A stretch of 64,000 bases of DNA from positions 124,001-188,000 of the forward strand of contig JAKPDO010000028.1 of assembly GCA_029552545.1 (NCBI GenBank), read 5' to 3'. Positions 11,378-41,700 of the stretch are shown here, one piece after another. The notes under the pieces are model-generated. The model was not told the DNA's origin. It worked only from the letters and a program-made list of their open reading frames with translations, and made no database searches. Within the stretch, counting starts at the first letter, position 1; every line of letters starts with the position of its first letter. A program made the translations under genes and the position numbers. The stretch comes from Planctomycetota bacterium. Lineage in GTDB: Bacteria; Planctomycetota; Phycisphaerae; Sedimentisphaerales; Anaerohalosphaeraceae.

Positions 11378-11450
11378 GGAGGCGTAGCTCAGCAGGTAGA
11401 GCAACGGCCTTTTAAGCCGTAGGTCCTGGGTTCGAGTCCCAGCGCCTTCA
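11378..11450 (+). tRNA. tRNA-Lys (anticodon TTT), CCA not encoded
   Basis: Cloverleaf: acceptor GGAGGCG/CGCCTTC, D-stem GCTC/GAGC, anticodon arm ACGGC-CTTTTAA-GCCGT, T-arm CTGGG-TTCGAGT-CCCAG. Confidence 0.95.
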
Positions 11451-11633
11451 TTTTCCATAACATTCTTTCTTCAAACAACTTAACTTTCCCCGCTGATGCT
11501 TTCGAATCAACGTATCCCCCTTCAAAACTCCTGAATGATTCTCTGGTTTCTAAAAATCCGTAGAGAAAATCAGCCAATCGGGAGTATTCTTTTGGATGTC
11601 TTTTTGAAAAAGGATTCAAGCCGGAGAGCCATT

Positions 11634-12461
11634 ATGAAAAAGACGGGGTTTACGCTGATTGAACTGCTGGTTGTCATTGCCATCATTGGGCTTCTGCTGG
11701 CCATTATCATTCCTTCCCTTCGGAGAGCGAAAGAAGCCGCCCAGAACGTGATTTGCCGCAACAATCTTCGCCACTACGGGCTGGCCGGCCAAATGTATGT
11801 CCAAAATAACAACTCTCTTTTTCCCAATGCCTGGGGCTCGATTTATAAATCCGTTGAGCCAAACCGCTTATGTCAATGGCACGACCAGTCCCGAAATCCG
11901 CTTCGTCAGCCCCAGCTGGCCGGAAGTCTTTGGCCCTATCTCGGAGAACAAGACAAAAGCCACTTATGCCCCATTTTTGACCGCTTTGCCCGCCAGAATC
12001 ACTCCTGCACTTCCGGCATTCCCGTTGAACCCGTTTTCGGATACAGTATGAATGCCCTGCTGGGCGGATTTGAATTGTCCGGCGCTGTCCAATACCAGCA
12101 TCTCCTTCGGGTTCGCATCAGCAGCATAAAGTCCCCCTCCTCTATCTTTTTCTTCGGAGAGGAAAATCCCTGGGTAAACAATACACGCTATACCGCCACC
12201 CTGAACGACAATGCTCTTTGCGGAACTCCCGAGCATCCTTCCTCCGTCGGCGCCTGGAATACAAATCCTTCTTTACTGGTCCCCTTCGGCCCCTTAAAAT
12301 ACCAGGATTGTCTGGCGAGCTTCCATAAAACGTCCCTCGAAAAAAGGGATGAAGGCCTATGCAATGCGGTCTTTGTTGACGGGCATGTGGACCTGGTCAG
12401 CTGGAAAGACACGTACCGGCTTTCTTTGTGGACGCGTCAGATGCCGCCGCTGAGCCGTTGA
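11634..12461 (+). CDS. Type II secretion-like prepilin with N-methylation motif and H-X9-DG-type C-terminus
   Basis: [37 protein letters not shown]-terminal [14 protein letters not shown]. Confidence 0.88.
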
Positions 12462-14349: not shown

Positions 14350-14505
14350 AAAACAGGATACCCGCTTCCCCTTTCTGCTGTTTTCCCTTCTTGGGGCCTG
14401 AAACAAAGAGGAACTGCTCGGTCTTTTCTTCGATTTTTCCGTAGAAGAAACCGATGTTTTCTCCGTTATCTTATAGAAGCAGATAGACCCCAGGCGAGGT
14501 CTCGA

Positions 14506-15038
14506 ATGGACGAAAACAGCAAAAAAACGGAAGTTTTTCTCTCGCTGTTAATGGCAAATCAGCGGCGAATCAACTCCTACATTCTCTCGTTGGTCCCCAA
14601 TTTTAATGATGCCGACGATATTATGCAGGAAACGATTACCGTGATGTGGAGGAAATTTGACCATTTCCAGATGGGGACGGACTTTGCCGGCTGGGGGTTA
14701 AAAGTCGCTTACTACTGCATTTTGGATTACCGCAAAAAAAAGGGAAGGATTTTCTGATTTTCAGTGAACCCCTCTTTCAGCAAATTCAGGAAATTGCCCG
14801 CGAAAAACAGCTGCACACGGACAGACGCATTCAGTATCTTCGCCGCTGCATCGAAAAGCTGCAATCGGCTGATCAGCGGTTTCTGAAGGCCCGATACGAA
14901 CTGAACTATGATGTGAAAACGCTGGCAGCCCAGCTGAATCGTTCAATACAGTATGTGTATAAGCATCTGTCCCGAATTCATCATACTCTGGCTCTCTGTG
15001 TGAAACGCTCCATTCGCGAACAGGAGGTTTCACTATGA
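14506..15038 (+). CDS. ECF-family RNA polymerase sigma factor, coding split by a -1 frameshift at 14736-14742
   Basis: Frame 0 (14506-14757): NDADDIMQETITVMWRKFDHF...YCILDYRKKKG. Frame -1 continues KDFLIFSEPLFQQIQEIAREKQL...LKARYELNYDVKTLAAQLNRSIQYVYKHLSRIHHTLALCVKRSIREQEVSL*, supplying sigma region 4. Stop overlaps the next start as ATGA. Confidence 0.85.
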
Positions 15039-16750
15039 ATGAACGCGATTTGATGCGTATCTCTGAGCTGCTGATTTACTGCTGCAACGGAATTGCCGGA
15101 CAGGAGGAAATCCGTGAACTGGAAACCCTGCTCCGTCAGGACAAAGAAGCCCTGGACTACTGTGTGGACGTCTTAATGGATTTGAATTATTTCCACTGTT
15201 TGGCCCAGACTCCCTTGTCGCACCCGGAAGAGGTTCCCTCCTTTGAAACGGATGAATCTGTTTTCATGTGCGAACTTGACCCGCAGGAGCAGTGGGCTCT
15301 TCTGGGGGATTTTGCTGAATATGAAAAACAGGCAGCCGCTCTGAAAATTGAAACCGCCCCAAAACCTCCGGAGTCTCCCTCCCGAGAAAAAACGGCTGTT
15401 CAGGGTCGCCCGACAAAGAGCCGCAAATACTCTCTGGCCGCCGCTGTCCTGAGTGCCGCTGCACTTCTGATAATTATCCTTTCTGCTCATCTGGCCCCTG
15501 CTCCTGCGGAAGAAGTCGCATCTGTTCTGGATTCGATTGATGCGGAATGGTCTTCGGAACTGCCGTTTCAGGCCGGCACCCGTCTGGACTGCAGCTCCAA
15601 ACCAATCCGGCTGACCCGAGGATGGGTCAAACTTCGAACCGATGAACAGGTTGAACTTGTTCTGGAGGCACCGACGGAGTTTCGGTTCCGCTCCTCCTCT
15701 GAAATTATTCTGAATTACGGAAAACTCTTCGCGCGAGTCTCTGAATTGGGCTCCGGCTTTTCCGTTACCACACCCAACTCCAAAGTGGTTGACCTTGGAA
15801 CGGAATTCGGCGTGGTTTGCCACATTGACGGCAATACGGATGTGCACCTTTACAAAGGACGGGCGAATTTATTTGCCGGAGAAAAGCATAAACGCAAAGT
15901 ATCTCAGATGCTCACTGCCGGTTCCGCCCGCCGCATTGCTTCGGAAGGTTCCGTTATTCGGGAAATTGAACTGGATGAGCGGGCGCTGGTTCGTCAGATT
16001 GATTCCAAAAGTCGATTCATCTGGAGAGGGCAAAAAACCCTTCAGCTGTCGGATTTGATTCTGGGCGGCAACGGATTCGGCTCGGCGGTTCTGCGGCAGA
16101 TTGAATTCGACCCTCAAACCGGGAAAATTGTGTCCAATCCCGTTGCCGGGTATCGGCGGGGAACAGGCACGTTCGTGCCGATTCCCGAGAATCCCTATCT
16201 GGACGGTCTTTTCGTCCCGGGAAGCGGCGCCGGCGACGTGGTCATCAGTTCGAAAGGACATACATTTCGAGAATGTCCCCAAACGAGCGGCCTTTATTAT
16301 TCAAATATCATCTGTTTTAAGGATTGGACTTTTTATGAGCCGCTTCAGGGCATCTTTGAAAAAACTGTCAAACAATTTGAAGAGTCCGGTCTTCTTTACT
16401 TCCACAGCAATATGGGGCTTACCGTGGATTTGGAGGCGGTCAGACGGATTGTTCCCGGTCTTCGCCTTGATTCGTTTTCCGCCTATGCCGGGATGATACG
16501 GATGGGGCAGAATCCTCCGGATTACGCCGAGGCGGATATTTGGGTTCTGGTGGATGGTCAGCTTCGCTGTTCCCGAAAACAGCTGCGGGCCGGCGAGGGC
16601 TTTGAAGTCCGGGTCAACCTGGCCGAGCAGGACCGCTTCTTGACTCTGATTGTAACCGATTCAGGGACATCCTACGTGGAAGGCCAGCCGCCGAACCATA
16701 CGGATACCTGCGGTTTCGCCGAACCGACTTTTTCTGTAACGTTTCCATAA
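15035..16750 (+). CDS. FecR-domain transmembrane anti-sigma/regulator-like protein
   Basis: Single TM YSLAAAVLSAAALLIIILSAHLA; FecR-like GWVKLRTDEQVELVLEAPTEFRF...SGFSVTTPNSKVVDLGTEFGVVCHIDGNTDVHLYKGRANL; ATGA-coupled to the ECF sigma gene. Confidence 0.85.
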   Translation: MNERDLMRISELLIYCCNGIAGQEEIRELETLLRQDKEALDYCVDVLMDLNYFHCLAQTPLSHPEEVPSFETDESVFMCELDPQEQWALLGDFAEYEKQAAALKIETAPKPPESPSREKTAVQGRPTKSRKYSLAAAVLSAAALLIIILSAHLAPAPAEEVASVLDSIDAEWSSELPFQAGTRLDCSSKPIRLTRGWVKLRTDEQVELVLEAPTEFRFRSSSEIILNYGKLFARVSELGSGFSVTTPNSKVVDLGTEFGVVCHIDGNTDVHLYKGRANLFAGEKHKRKVSQMLTAGSARRIASEGSVIREIELDERALVRQIDSKSRFIWRGQKTLQLSDLILGGNGFGSAVLRQIEFDPQTGKIVSNPVAGYRRGTGTFVPIPENPYLDGLFVPGSGAGDVVISSKGHTFRECPQTSGLYYSNIICFKDWTFYEPLQGIFEKTVKQFEESGLLYFHSNMGLTVDLEAVRRIVPGLRLDSFSAYAGMIRMGQNPPDYAEADIWVLVDGQLRCSRKQLRAGEGFEVRVNLAEQDRFLTLIVTDSGTSYVEGQPPNHTDTCGFAEPTFSVTFP

Positions 16751-16816: not shown

Positions 16817-18214
16817 ATGAAAAAAGCAGCGGCAGGATTCAGTATTTTTCTTTTGTTTTTGCTGACGGCAGAGCTCACCTGGGCCAATTTATTGAAAAAT
16901 CCAGGTTTTGAAGAGGGCCCCACCGGCCAGATTACAAATGTTCCGATTCCGGGATGGAGCACCTGGAATTACAGCGGCTGGCATCACAATGACCCGGGGC
17001 GCGTCCGCGATACGAAAGCCGTCAAACTCTGGTGGACTGACAGCGGGATTTATCAGGATTTTCCCGCCCAGGCCGGACATACGTATCGTTTCAGCGGCTA
17101 TATGCTTCATCATCACACGGATCCGCTTCGGGACGGCGCCGGCGGAGTGCCCGGAGATAAATCCGGCGAATTCCGCGCGGAATGGTACACGGCCACAAAT
17201 GTTATGATTCGGGAAGATGCCTGGGCGAAAATTACCAAAAATGACACAATTGATGTGTGGCATTTTTATACGGCAGACCTGACCGCTCCGCCCGGCACGG
17301 CTTACGGACGGTTTCTGATTCGGATGTACCAGCCGACGGCGGGTGACGGAGCCGTCAATTACGATGACACGTCTGTATATGACGTCGCCCTTTACGGGCA
17401 AGCGTACGACCCGAATCCTGCAGATGGAGCCATGGTCACGCTGGACCTGCAAACCCTGTCCTGGAAGAGTCATGATCCCGAAGACCGTTTTCTTTACACA
17501 GTCTATTTAGAGCCGGAAGGACCCGTTGTGGATCCGAATTTTTATTCTGCACCGATTGCATCCGGAATCTCTGATACATTCATTAATCTGGCACAGGCCG
17601 GGATTACCTTGATGGACAACAAGATTTATACGTGGCGGGTTGATACCACCGATCCCAATAACGGCTCTCCGGTTTTCTTCCAGGGTCCTGTATGGACCTT
17701 CCAGGTCGGCGATGTTCCTCCGCTCGTGGACGCAGGGGCGAATCAGTACGTCTGGCTGGTGAACGGAGAGGGACATTTTACTTTGTCCGGCTCTTATACC
17801 GATGACGGCAAGAGTCCCATTACACGGGCCGAATATGTAGAAGGCACCCATGAAAAAGCCGGCGGTACTGTAGTCACAATGGGTACTCAGACGTGGGACC
17901 CGATTGCGAAAACAGTTACGGTAGATGTGACCGTATCCAACCCGGTTGTCGGCCAGACCGCTACGGGATGGTATGGATTTACCCTCGAGGTGCAAGATGC
18001 GGCGGGCGTCGGCTCAGACTCGGTTCATGCAGGCGTTTATACCACTTGTCTGGAAGCGGCCCTCGCCGACCCGGCGGACAACACCATTGAAACCAACTGG
18101 CCAAACGGGCACGGCGACATCAACGGCGACTGTGTAACCAATCTCGAAGACCTGGCCCTGCTGGCTTTAAGCTGGGTGGACTGCATGACTGTCAAGGCCG
18201 GCTGTACTCCCTGA
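16817..18214 (+). CDS. Secreted protein with N-terminal lectin/CBM-like module and C-terminal dockerin-like motif
   Basis: Signal peptide; NLLKNPGFEEGPTGQITNVPIPGWSTWNYSGWHHNDPG module; C-terminal GHGDINGDCVTNLEDLALLALSW. Confidence 0.75.
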   Translation: MKKAAAGFSIFLLFLLTAELTWANLLKNPGFEEGPTGQITNVPIPGWSTWNYSGWHHNDPGRVRDTKAVKLWWTDSGIYQDFPAQAGHTYRFSGYMLHHHTDPLRDGAGGVPGDKSGEFRAEWYTATNVMIREDAWAKITKNDTIDVWHFYTADLTAPPGTAYGRFLIRMYQPTAGDGAVNYDDTSVYDVALYGQAYDPNPADGAMVTLDLQTLSWKSHDPEDRFLYTVYLEPEGPVVDPNFYSAPIASGISDTFINLAQAGITLMDNKIYTWRVDTTDPNNGSPVFFQGPVWTFQVGDVPPLVDAGANQYVWLVNGEGHFTLSGSYTDDGKSPITRAEYVEGTHEKAGGTVVTMGTQTWDPIAKTVTVDVTVSNPVVGQTATGWYGFTLEVQDAAGVGSDSVHAGVYTTCLEAALADPADNTIETNWPNGHGDINGDCVTNLEDLALLALSWVDCMTVKAGCTP

Positions 18215-18297
18215 GATGGATAATGAGAAAATGTCTGTGTGAAGTGTGGTGTGCAATCGAGAACTGTTATGAAAACACTTTTTGGAGGAACGGACAG

Positions 18298-18909
18298 ATG
18301 AAAAAGTTTGTGTATGCAGGATTAGCCGCCCTGCTGATGTGGATACCGGCGGCTTCAGCCAATCTGCTGACGAATGGAGGTTTTGAAGACGGCAATACCG
18401 GTCAATTAGGCGTGGTTTCGATACCGGGCTGGAACAACTGGGGCTATTCCGGCTGGCATCACGATGACCCCGGCTGCATGATCGGGACCAAAGGAATGAA
18501 GTTTTGGTGGGATGACAGCGGGATGTGGCAGGATTATGCGGCTGCGGCCGGACAGACCTATTTCTACTGTGTCCAGGTGATGGATGCCGGTCGGGATACC
18601 TCCCCCGTAAACTGGGACTTTCGATTGGAAGCGGAGTTTTATGATTCCGCCAACACGCAGCTGACCGCCGTCGTTCTGGGTTATTTTGATTCTTCAATCC
18701 AGCCGGATGACACCTGGGTTCAGCTGAGCGGTTCGATTATGGCCCCCGCCGGCACAGCTTACGGACGCGTGGTTCTGCGTCTGTGGGATTGGCAGCCCAA
18801 TATCCGCGGAGCCATTTACTTTGATGAGGTATCCGTTGTTCCGGAACCGGCATCGCTGGTAGCATTAGGACTGGGCGGTTTACTGCTCGGACGTCGTTAC
18901 CACGGATAA
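18298..18909 (+). CDS. PEP-CTERM-sorted secreted protein with lectin/CBM-like module
   Basis: Signal peptide MKKFVYAGLAALLMWIPAASA; NLLTNGGFEDGNTGQLGVVSIPGWNNWGYSGWHHDDPG; C-terminus VVPEPASLVALGLGGLLLGRRYHG. Confidence 0.85.
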   Translation: MKKFVYAGLAALLMWIPAASANLLTNGGFEDGNTGQLGVVSIPGWNNWGYSGWHHDDPGCMIGTKGMKFWWDDSGMWQDYAAAAGQTYFYCVQVMDAGRDTSPVNWDFRLEAEFYDSANTQLTAVVLGYFDSSIQPDDTWVQLSGSIMAPAGTAYGRVVLRLWDWQPNIRGAIYFDEVSVVPEPASLVALGLGGLLLGRRYHG

Positions 18910-18958
18910 AAACGGTTTTCGCAAACACTTGAATTCAGCGTCTTTGTGGGCGAATCCT

Positions 18959-18992
18959 GGCGGTCTCCGGCGAATCTTTGCCGGGGGCCGCC
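18959..18992 (+). other. Strong GC-rich RNA hairpin in the PEP-CTERM/GH30 intergenic gap
   Basis: GGCGGTCTCCGGC-GAATCTTT-GCCGGGGGCCGCC: 13-bp stem (two G-U pairs), no T-tract. Confidence 0.6.
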
Positions 18993-19017
18993 AATCGCTT
19001 GAATAAGAAAAAAACTA

Positions 19018-21099
19018 TTGAGAAATGGAAAAATGAGAACGTTGTTCCGGATAGGATGCCTTGGGATTCTGTGGGCTTCAACTCTTCAGGCGGGGACAAA
19101 TCTGCTGACCAATGGGGATTTCGAAGGCGGTTCACTGGGCCGGTTGGGGACGGTCTCCATTCCCGGCTGGAACAGTTGGGGCGGCTCCGGCTGGCATCAC
19201 AGCGATACCGGCGCCTGCCTCGGAAGCAAAGGGATGAAGTTCTGGTGGGACGACAGCGGACTGTGGCAGGATTTTGCCGCCCTCGAGGGACTGACGTACT
19301 CCTTTCGTGTGCAGGTGATGGATTGGAGCGGGGATACCTCCTCCAACAACTGGGATTTTCGAATCGAAGCGGAATTTTACACGGCGGCCCATACCGCAAT
19401 CGTCAAACAAGTTGTCGGATATTTCGATTCCTCCGTCCAGCCCAACGATACCTGGATTGAGATTGGGGGGACGATTACGGCCCCGGCAGGAACGGCTTAC
19501 GGACGGGTCGTCCTGCGTCTGTGGGACTGGAAGTCCGGCATCAGCGGTTCTATCTACTTTGATAACGTCTCCGTTACAATCCAAAAAACGGCCGATTATA
19601 ACAATGATTTTCATATTGATTATGAAGACTACCTTCGTCTGTCCCGTTTTTGGCGGCAGACCGCCCCGGAATACGACTTAAACGATGACAATTTTATTGA
19701 TATCAGCGATTTGGCACTCTTCGTTCAGGATTGGCTGATGTGGCAGGAGCCCGCTGATGCAAAAGCAATTTGGGTGGACTCAACGGTTGCCTATCAGGAA
19801 ATTGAAGGAATCGGTGCATCTTTGACAGACTCCTCGGCGTGGCTGCTCCATCAGTTTCTGACTCCCACTGAACGCCAGGACGTCCTGACGGACTTGTTTG
19901 ACCCCAGTGCGGGCATCGGGCTCAATTATCTCCGCCAGCCGATGGGGGCTTCCGACTTTCGTCTGCAGGATTACACCTATGATGACCTGCCTGCAAATGT
20001 AAACTCGGATTATCTGCTGGCTTACTTCTCGATTGCCTATGAGGAAAGTTCTATCATTCCGACTCTTCAGCAAATCCTGGCAATCAATCCGAATGTTCGG
20101 ATTATGGGCAGTCCCTGGAGTCCGCCCGCGTGGATGAAAACCAGCGGCCAGCTCGGAGGGGGACGGCTGAAAAATGATGTGTACGGCACTTATGCCAATT
20201 ATTTTGTGAAATATATTCAGGCCTATGCGGCTCACGGGATTCCGGTTGATGCTGTTACCCTGCAGAATGAACCTTATTACGAACCATGGACCTATCCCGG
20301 CTGTCGAATGGAACCGGCGGACCAAATCAGATTGGTCAAGGAATTAGGGGCCGCCTTCCAGCAGAATCAGATTGCGGCGAAAATCCTGATTTGGGATCAC
20401 AACTGGGATAATCCGGACTTTCCTTTGGCTGTTCTGAGCGACCCAATCGCCCGCCAGTATATCGCCGGTACAGCGTTTCATCATTACGGCGGAGATGTCT
20501 CTGCGCAGACCACAGTGCACAATGCATATCCCGACAAAGCCATTTATTTTACGGAGGGCTCAGACGGAACCTGGAATGACGGCGGGTTTGAAGCGGATTT
20601 GATTCGAAACGGTGTTTTTCTGGTCGAAACGCTGCGGAACTGGGCGAAAACTGTTATCAAGTGGAATCTTGCTCTGGATGAAAACAACGGTCCCAAGATT
20701 GCCGGCGGCTGCGACACATGCTACGGCGTAATCACCATCAACCGTTCCACGCGTCAGGTTACCCCCAGACCTCAGTATTATGCTCTTGGTCATGCATCAA
20801 AGTATCTTCAAAGGGGTGCCGTTCGAATTCAGTCAGAAAGCGAAACGCTGCGGTCGGTCGCTTTTCAGAATCCGGACCATTCAATCGTTCTCTATGCAGT
20901 CAATCCGGATGCCGTCGGTTACACAATCAAACTTCAATGGAATGGTAGGCGGCTTTTAAGCCGCATTCCCTCCCGTTCCATTATGACCTTTCGCTGGAAT
21001 GGCGATGCTCCGTCAAAAGCGGACAGACTTTTGACCACAGGCGACGGACAATCGCTTCTGCAGCCGTTGCCGCCTGTATTCTTCTATAACGGAAGCTGA
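19018..21099 (+). CDS. GH30-like glycoside hydrolase with N-terminal lectin/CBM-like module and dockerin-like EF-hand pair
   Basis: NLLTNGDFEGGSLGRLGTVSIPGWNSWGGSGWHHSDTG; YNNDFHIDYEDYLRLSRFW/DLNDDNFIDISDLALFVQDWL; IEGIGASLTDSSAWLL, GSPWSPPAWMKT, TLQNEPYYEP, YFTEGSDGTWN. Signal-peptide ATG likely at 19033. Confidence 0.88.
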   Translation: MRNGKMRTLFRIGCLGILWASTLQAGTNLLTNGDFEGGSLGRLGTVSIPGWNSWGGSGWHHSDTGACLGSKGMKFWWDDSGLWQDFAALEGLTYSFRVQVMDWSGDTSSNNWDFRIEAEFYTAAHTAIVKQVVGYFDSSVQPNDTWIEIGGTITAPAGTAYGRVVLRLWDWKSGISGSIYFDNVSVTIQKTADYNNDFHIDYEDYLRLSRFWRQTAPEYDLNDDNFIDISDLALFVQDWLMWQEPADAKAIWVDSTVAYQEIEGIGASLTDSSAWLLHQFLTPTERQDVLTDLFDPSAGIGLNYLRQPMGASDFRLQDYTYDDLPANVNSDYLLAYFSIAYEESSIIPTLQQILAINPNVRIMGSPWSPPAWMKTSGQLGGGRLKNDVYGTYANYFVKYIQAYAAHGIPVDAVTLQNEPYYEPWTYPGCRMEPADQIRLVKELGAAFQQNQIAAKILIWDHNWDNPDFPLAVLSDPIARQYIAGTAFHHYGGDVSAQTTVHNAYPDKAIYFTEGSDGTWNDGGFEADLIRNGVFLVETLRNWAKTVIKWNLALDENNGPKIAGGCDTCYGVITINRSTRQVTPRPQYYALGHASKYLQRGAVRIQSESETLRSVAFQNPDHSIVLYAVNPDAVGYTIKLQWNGRRLLSRIPSRSIMTFRWNGDAPSKADRLLTTGDGQSLLQPLPPVFFYNGS

Positions 21100-38741: not shown

Positions 38742-41700
38742 ATGAAGTTAGAAAAGGTTGTCATCAATGGATTTAAGAGCTTTGCAGACAAAACTGAACT
38801 TCAGTTTAACCAGGCGATTACAGGCATTGTTGGACCCAATGGATGCGGAAAAAGCAATGTAGTGGACGCTATCAAGTGGGTTTTGGGCAGCCAAAGCCCA
38901 AAAAGTTTACGAAGCGGCCAGATGGCCGATGTGATTTTCAGCGGTTCCAGCAGCCGAAAACCCAGCGGAATGGCAGAAGTTTCCCTCCACTTTTCCGGCG
39001 GGCAGACTTTGGGGCTGGAGCAGGATGAATTGACCATCACACGGCGTCTGTTTCGCAGCGGAGAAAGTGAGCATCTTCTCAACGGAAAATCCTGCCGTCT
39101 TCGCGATATACGCAATCTCTTTTTGGATACAGGCGTCGGCGTCAGTGCTTATTCGATTATTGAGCAGGGCCAGATCGACCAGCTGCTCCATGCCTCCAAG
39201 GTAGACCGTCGGATTATTTTCGAGGAAGCCGCAGGGATCAGCCGATTCAAAGTGCACAAAAAAGAAGCAGAACGAAAACTCGAACGGGCGGAACAGAATC
39301 TGCTCCGATTGGCCGACATCATCAATGAGGTCCAGCGGCAGCTGCGGAGCATCAAACTGCAGGCCGGGAAGGCACGCAGCTTTCTTGAATACACCCAGCG
39401 CCTCAAAGAACTGCGTATTCGTTTTTCTCTTGCTGAATTTCATAAATATAAAACCCAGCAGAAGGAAAAAGAACAGACTCTCGGCCAGTGGCAGGAGCGT
39501 TTTGCACAAACCGCTGCGGAGGTGTCCCGTCTGGATGCGGCCGAGAGCCGTCTGCACAGTCAGCTCACCCAGGCCGAGGCGGAAATCGGCCGCTGGGACA
39601 ATACCCTGATTGCCGCTCGCAGCCGAATTGAACAGCAAATAGAGCGCATTCGATTCCTGAAAGACCGACTGTCTGAACTTCAGAAGAGAAAAAACGAGGC
39701 GAACGAGCAGGTTCGCACCATCAGCCGCCAGTGCTCTCACTTTCTGGAAAGTATTGAGACACTTCGAGAAAAATTGCAGGCCGGAGAAGAGCGTCTGAAC
39801 GAACTGAATCAACGGATGCAGCAGCAGGAGGAAAAGATTCGCCAAAGCAGCCGGTTTTATGCGGAACTTCAATCGCAGCTGGATGATGAAAAGTCCGGCA
39901 TTCTCGACATCGTTCGTCGAACGGCTCAGCTGCACAATGAAATTCAGAGTCTGAATACGTATCGAAACAATCTGTCCGGCCAAAAAACCCGTCTGAGCGG
40001 AAAGGCGGCCCAGGTCCAGGAGCAAACAGCGGTATGGCTTACGGAAAAAGCCCAGCTCCAAACGCGTTTGGAAGAGATTCAAATCGTCCTGCAGCAGCTG
40101 AACCATACCTTATCGGAGCAGAAAGCATCGATGGAATCTGTCGGTCAGGAAGAAGCATTGCTGCGAAAGAGTCTCGAGCAGCTCAAGGAACAGCGAAGCG
40201 GACTTACGGCCGAACGAAATGTTCTCCGAGAGATGGAAAACCGGAGAGAAGGACTCAATGAGGCCGTGAAAACCATCCTCGACCGATATCGGCGGAATAA
40301 GCAGTCGAGTCTGATTGAGGGAGTTTTAGCGGATATTCTTCATACGGATGTAGAGTATGCGCCGGCTGTGGAGGCCGCCCTCGGGCCCGCTCTTCAGGCC
40401 CTTCTGATCAATGATACGCAGCAATTTCTCGAAGAAAAATCCATTTATTCCGGTCTGAACAGCCGGCTTCAGGTGCTTTGTATGGACCGCTTTGAGCCGT
40501 TCCGGGATTCTTTAGACGTTCGAGAATTGAACGGGGTCCGGGGCCGGCTGATTGAGTTCGTCCGTTTTGAAGAACAGTATGCCCCCCTCTGTTGGTCTCT
40601 GCTGGGGAAAGTGCTTCTTGTGGATTCCGTGGAAACGGCTCTGGATTTGGCCGCTCATCTGGACCGAGAATACCAATTCGTCACGCTTGGCGGACACCTT
40701 GTAAGCAACGGAATGCTTTTGTCTGTGGGACCGCTGAATCAGTCTGCCGGTGCGGGGCTGCTGTCCCGCAAAAGCCGGATTGAACAGATTGAATCTGTCC
40801 TCAAAAACCTGCAGGAACAGATCAGCCGGCAGGAGGAACATCTGCAGCAGGCCGACCAGAAGTACGCCCATCTTTCGAAGGTCTGTCAGGACCTTCGAAC
40901 GAGCATTTATGAGGCAACTGCGGAACGGGTAGATACAGAATCGCGACTGCGTCTGCTCGAGCAGAATCTGAAACGGCTGACGGACGAACAGCCCCTGATT
41001 TTCGAAGAGATGAAGCAGCTGGAGGAGGAAATTCAGCAGTCCGTCCGGCGTGAGCATGAATCACAGGGCAAACTGAAGGAATTGGAGGAGCTGAACCGCC
41101 AGCGGACGGAACAGATTGCCGCTCTTCAGAAATCACTGGACGAGAAAAAATCAGAACTGGAAAAAGAGACGGCCGCTCTGACGGATTTAAAGATTCAGTA
41201 CGGGCAGGCCGTCGAACAGCAGAAATCCGTTCATCAGCAGATTTCCTCGCTTCAAAGTCAGCTGCAGCACAGCCGAATAGCTCTCCAAGCTTCCCGGACA
41301 GAGTTCCACAGCAGTCAAGAACAGATTGTACAAACGGAACGGGCTGTGCTGAAGACCGAATCGGAGATGAATCGTCTTTATTTAGAAAAGGAAACGGCTC
41401 AGAGGCAAAGCCGTCTCCTGCACAAACAGATTGAAGCCCTTCAGGCCGAACAGAAGGAAAATGAACAGCGCCTTCGTCAGAGCCGGCGGGTTCAGCAGGA
41501 GATTGAAGAGTCGATTCACCAGATTCAGATTGATCTGGGGCAGATTCAGGTGCGTCAGGAAGACCTGATTCAGCGTGTTCGGGAAGAACTTCAGATGGAC
41601 CTGGCTGCTCAATACGAAACCTTCCGGGAGGAGCAGACCGACTGGGAAGCCGTTCAGGAAGAAATCCGCCAGCTGCGGGAAAAGATTGAACGGTTGGGAC

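Follow-up and report, generated by a model that had tools for sequence, protein, structure and literature searches.

The sigma/FecR locus and its broken reading frame

On the forward strand of the window, by which we mean the whole 64,000-nucleotide stretch analysed here, a gene for an ECF sigma factor stands directly ahead of a gene for a FecR-domain protein, and the sigma gene is divided between two reading frames. Its 5' part (14506..14757) follows a Shine-Dalgarno-like AGGCGAGG (14492..14499), located 6 nt 5' of the ATG at 14506, and encodes in frame 0 an 83-residue protein, MDENSKK...YCILDYRKKKGRIF, which ends through the codons CGC AAA AAA AAG GGA AGG ATT TTC at a TGA (14755-14757) and carries region 2, with matches to Pfam Sigma70_r2 (5e-10) and to TIGR02989. 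The 3' part (14742..15038), consisting of the linker and region 4, lies in the -1 frame, whose translation at 14742 begins GKDFLIFSEPLFQQ and runs as GKDFLIFSEPLFQQI...EVSL to the C-terminus EQEVSL and a TGA (15036-15038) that overlaps the fecR ATG at 15035. The frame breaks at a run of exactly eight A (14734..14741), and an A_AAA_AAG heptamer (14736..14742) lies across it. The initial annotation had placed the frame 0 stop before region 4, had rejoined region 4 by a -1 shift in this run with a stop overlapping fecR, and had seen the heptamer in the phase for -1 slippage; translation of the frames bears out all of this.

In a profile search the joined reading scores 139 bits against TIGR02989, above the curated whole-protein cut-off of 124.55 bits, while the separate halves reach 69.8 and 59.5 bits, both under it. 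The 5' part covers profile positions 3-73 and the 3' part positions 74-158; the latter also matches Pfam Sigma70_r4_2 at 9e-05, under the gathering score. As both parts match one family end to end, the frame break is real in this sequence and is not a misread gene boundary. TIGR02989 is Sig-70_gvs1, the Rhodopirellula/Verrucomicrobium family of ECF sigma factors. The locus resembles the ECF and FecR-domain pairs of this family in family assignment, domain order and neighbouring gene, but the present copy differs from its sigma factors in that regions 2 and 4 do not share a single open frame, region 4 being put into the -1 frame in the linker. The sigma locus had no match in an Rfam search, and the sigma gene none in the plasmid collection.

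Two other ways to a working protein were considered and set aside. A separate start of translation for region 4 is not available, since no ATG, GTG or TTG precedes its helices in the -1 frame, and a second intact copy was not found, the next best match in the same genome being 42% identical.

The gene for the FecR-domain protein (15035..16750, 571 aa, Pfam FecR 1.4e-06) is intact and is found in the same order in genomes G004, G001 and G002; its product is the presumed partner of the sigma factor. An AGGAGG (15022..15027) serves as its own Shine-Dalgarno sequence, so that FecR need not rely on translational coupling. Neighbouring genes are conserved around the orthologues in G004 and G001, and on the G002 contig, which is cut off, the 3' end of the sigma gene is likewise followed by fecR and the gene after it. 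After the sigma/FecR pair, three successive genes (16817-21099) possess a common N-terminal module, NLL.N..FE.G..G....V.IPGW..W..SGWHH.D; one of them has a dockerin-like end, one a PEP-CTERM-like tail and one a GH30 domain. Their order is partly kept in G004 and G001, which suggests that they are the regulon of the pair. Further upstream, a tRNA gene (11378-11450; Rfam RF00005, 75.5 bits) precedes a pilin-like frame (11535-12461).

The site in relatives and the dnaX run as a control

Counterparts of the sigma gene from the genus and the family, L021 (G004, 83% identity), L022 (G001, 74%) and L047 (G015, 67%), are all uninterrupted, and their common gene order points to true orthology. At the hinge, where the window gene reads CGC AAA AAA AAG GGA AGG, they have CGA AGA AGC AAG AGC AAA GAC (G004), CGA AAA CAA AAA AGT AAA GAC (G001) and CGT AAG AAG AAA GCA AAA GAC (G015), translated as AGAAGCAAGAGC, AAACAAAAAAGT and AAGAAGAAAGCA respectively, and none of the three carries there either A_AAA_AAG or a run of the A8 type. 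The 31-nt site of the window was not found in five congeners at up to three mismatches, which leaves it to its own genome among six, and a scan of the genome contigs returned the G004 orthologue as the sole match. In this comparison, which includes one genome of the source species, the continuity of all three orthologues at the hinge shows the break to be derived on the window's own branch. An own-branch break beside intact orthologues is the pattern of a pseudogene made by an indel; a frameshift site of the dnaX type would be expected to be kept in the orthologues, which is not the case here.

It would be reasonable to ask whether such a comparison is able to detect a conserved slip site, and the dnaX gene of the same bacteria gives the answer. 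In the window's own genome dnaX (L077, G000:C48:88336-89409) has an in-frame run of nine A directly behind the part encoding the clamp-loader domains, and the -1 frame meets a stop five codons later. Runs of A9-A11 occur in the corresponding position (codon 329-343 after the Walker motif) in 29 of 29 species of the family with a readable gene, and runs of 8-10 A in 25 of 30 members of the class sampled evenly (loci of both sets L077, L081-L085 and L116-L171); the stops of the shifted frame are usually a few codons past the run. In a few species (L149, L163) the zero frame, too, meets a stop no more than about 12 codons from the run, and their long form might need slippage. The arrangement is that of Thermus thermophilus (PMC1088944, PMC5009743), and the run is likely a class-wide slippage site of the Thermus type that makes gamma and tau. 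Since the dnaX run is detected as conserved, the comparison applied to the sigma gene is capable of detecting a conserved slip site. The A9-A11 of dnaX also provides a model of a likely programmed site in this lineage, of which conservation would be expected.

The slippery heptamer and the case for programmed shifting

The presence of A_AAA_AAG in the right phase, as a dnaX-type -1 frameshift demands, follows automatically from the loss of one base. Removal of one A from an in-frame AAA AAA AAA Gxx makes -1 the restoring direction, and AAA AAA AAA G minus one A always gives an in-phase A_AAA_AAG, for which reason the heptamer at the break is uninformative and its coincidence with the break adds no evidence for programming. 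We interpret it as a by-product of a one-base loss in a run of lysine codons. The same in-phase heptamer is present in four intact ECF genes (L032, L034, L057 and L065), mostly in the same lysine-rich linker, and another intact ECF gene (L058) has a run of nine A, among 62 genes examined. More generally, where a frame breaks within a run of lysine codons, a slippery heptamer says nothing in favour of programming.

A programmed -1 ribosomal frameshift like that of E. coli dnaX, with a region-2-only and a full-length sigma factor made in a set ratio, could appeal to the phase of the heptamer and to a weak 10-bp stem that can be drawn about 6 nt 3' of it. The stem is at chance level: against shuffled sequences, three spans 3' of the heptamer gave z values of +0.24, -0.93 and -0.20, no better than chance, the best 55-nt fold being the one at z = -0.93, and 54% of the 55-nt windows sampled over the 64 kb fold as well as or better than the downstream span. 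By inspection, no Shine-Dalgarno-like stimulator stands 10-14 nt upstream of the heptamer, where the sequence is TTTTGGATTACCGC (the upstream sequence inspected being GCATTTTGGATTACCGC). The sigma site lacks the two elements that assist frameshifting in dnaX. With E. coli dnaX it has the same heptamer in the same phase in common, but it is unconserved, has no upstream Shine-Dalgarno sequence and a stem-loop at chance level, and a -1 shift would here lengthen the product and not shorten it. In the literature we found no recoding described for any ECF sigma factor. With the site missing from all three orthologues and the heptamer carried by intact paralogues as well, we regard programmed frameshifting as very improbable.

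The initial annotation had left programmed slippage, a mutation and a base undercall side by side, and had named, as one of two refuting observations, close relatives with a continuous frame and no slippery site. The genes of G004, G001 and G015 are exactly such relatives; they and the missing stimulators weigh against programming, and the other two readings survive. According to our analysis the frame break is of the ordinary kind, whether real or technical, and programmed recoding is not supported.

Deletion, undercall or leaky slippage

Changes were counted on the window branch and on the G004 branch with G001 as an outgroup. In region 4 the former has accumulated 5 changes of amino acid and 10 synonymous ones and the latter 6 and 11; in the 5' part the counts are 4 and 11 against 5 and 11. 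Scored with a family profile that excludes the four orthologues, the C-terminal part of the window protein reaches 88.6 bits, between the 84.6 and 90.7 of intact orthologues; K83F is an odd residue of the window gene alone. By these counts region 4 shows no visible loosening of constraint and does not change faster than its counterpart in the intact sister, so that the relaxation past the break that marks a pseudogene is not seen. The break would then be very recent, or an assembly undercall, or leaky, and the counts do not separate the three.

We favour, at somewhat better than even chance, a real and recent one-base deletion, of which the heptamer is a by-product and the truncated product is expected to be inactive. 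In this uncultured, Phycisphaerae-like member of the planctomycete group, one base would have been lost recently from the A run in the lysine-rich linker between regions 2 and 4, most likely through slipped-strand replication, leaving the slippery heptamer behind. The gene as read would give the 83-residue product with region 2 only and without the domain that binds the promoter -35 element, presumably inactive, and fecR should be still translatable from its own Shine-Dalgarno sequence. The sigma gene is without material difference from the singleton frameshifted genes and pseudogenes of Antonov et al. 2013 (PMC3711429), which likewise combine a break in one genome with a restored protein backed by homologues and no conserved shift site.

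Elsewhere in the genus, a paralogous ECF gene (L072, G003:C39:10706-11188) has a nonsense TAA in the linker between regions 2 and 4 (IFT*RKKN) with the rest readable, and in another (L070, G005:C2, about 40010-40210) region 2 breaks off and region 4 is gone, the sequence continuing in another frame, as judged by eye, into a FecR-type N-terminus. The nonsense codon of the one and the lost region 4 of the other show the ECF set of the genus undergoing pruning, which favours a real deletion in the window gene.

The second place after a real recent deletion belongs to an undercall, with a base missed in the A run when a draft or metagenome-assembled genome was sequenced or assembled and the true gene being intact, which we consider unlikely and yet worth serious attention. 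A lone, unconserved homopolymer break under unrelaxed selection is typical of an error, and the unrelaxed region 4 is predicted by an undercall equally well; the source genome is a draft of 58 contigs (3.09 Mb), and singleton frame breaks supported by BLAST are expected to be mostly sequencing errors and not genuine indels (Antonov et al., PMC3711429). On the other hand, runs of this kind are generally read in frame in the same assembly. From the 230 A8 sites of the genome 30 were sampled, and 21 of these fall within frames that are open for 150 codons or more, an approximate count taken from stop to stop on either strand. The window has 28 homopolymer runs of at least 7 besides the broken A8, most of them in long frames that stay open, and its other two A8 runs also sit in long open frames. 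That A8 runs usually keep frame speaks against systematic undercalling, and to this may be added the A9 of the own-genome dnaX, read in frame, an estimated completeness of 99.97%, and 9.5 kb compared with relatives in which no further frame break was seen. Judging from the assembly rather than from reads, we hold a real deletion to be about twice as probable as an undercall.

A third reading keeps the deletion and lets transcriptional slippage on the A8 run, or a ribosomal -1 shift, restore enough working full-length sigma factor with no conserved programme; we think this rather improbable. Runs of about 8-11 A are known to slip (PMC1088944, PMC4256274), slippage on 8 or 9 A being described for IS elements of D. 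radiodurans (PMC1088944), and in E. coli A_AAA_AAG is prone to shifting by itself (PMC5009743). The conserved A9-A11 of dnaX implies that the polymerase or the ribosome of this lineage probably slips on A runs, which makes some leakage of full-length sigma from the A8 run plausible by analogy, and region 4 under normal constraint is compatible with a rescued protein. This constraint is, however, explained equally by a very recent break; the sigma gene is a singleton, and other A8 runs sit within long genes. Transcriptional slippage sites are long runs, usually of at least nine, kept in relatives, whereas the sigma run is an unconserved A8, shorter than those of dnaX and below the nine nucleotides from which selection against slippage sets in in many genomes (PMC1088944). 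The closest described case is that of tssM1 of Citrobacter rodentium, discussed together with Shigella mxiE (PMC4256274), which is likewise broken just after an A run and needs slippage for its full length; there an A11 gives a rescue of about 20-25% and slippage is proven experimentally, while the sigma A8 is read from sequence alone. Functional transcriptional slippage on the A8 run is accordingly possible, but unsupported. We may even imagine that slippage yields a region-2-only form next to the full-length sigma factor, as a newly arisen, lineage-specific recoding switch, but to this we give a slim chance. Slimmest of all is that of phase variation, in which the A run would be an on/off contingency tract operated by replication slippage: a one-base homopolymer change would indeed switch the gene, but the tract is short and not conserved in orthologues.

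Runs of eight A or T are altogether scarcer in the window than expected from dinucleotide shuffles (3 against 11.9), and this scarcity is consistent with avoidance of slippage-prone runs.
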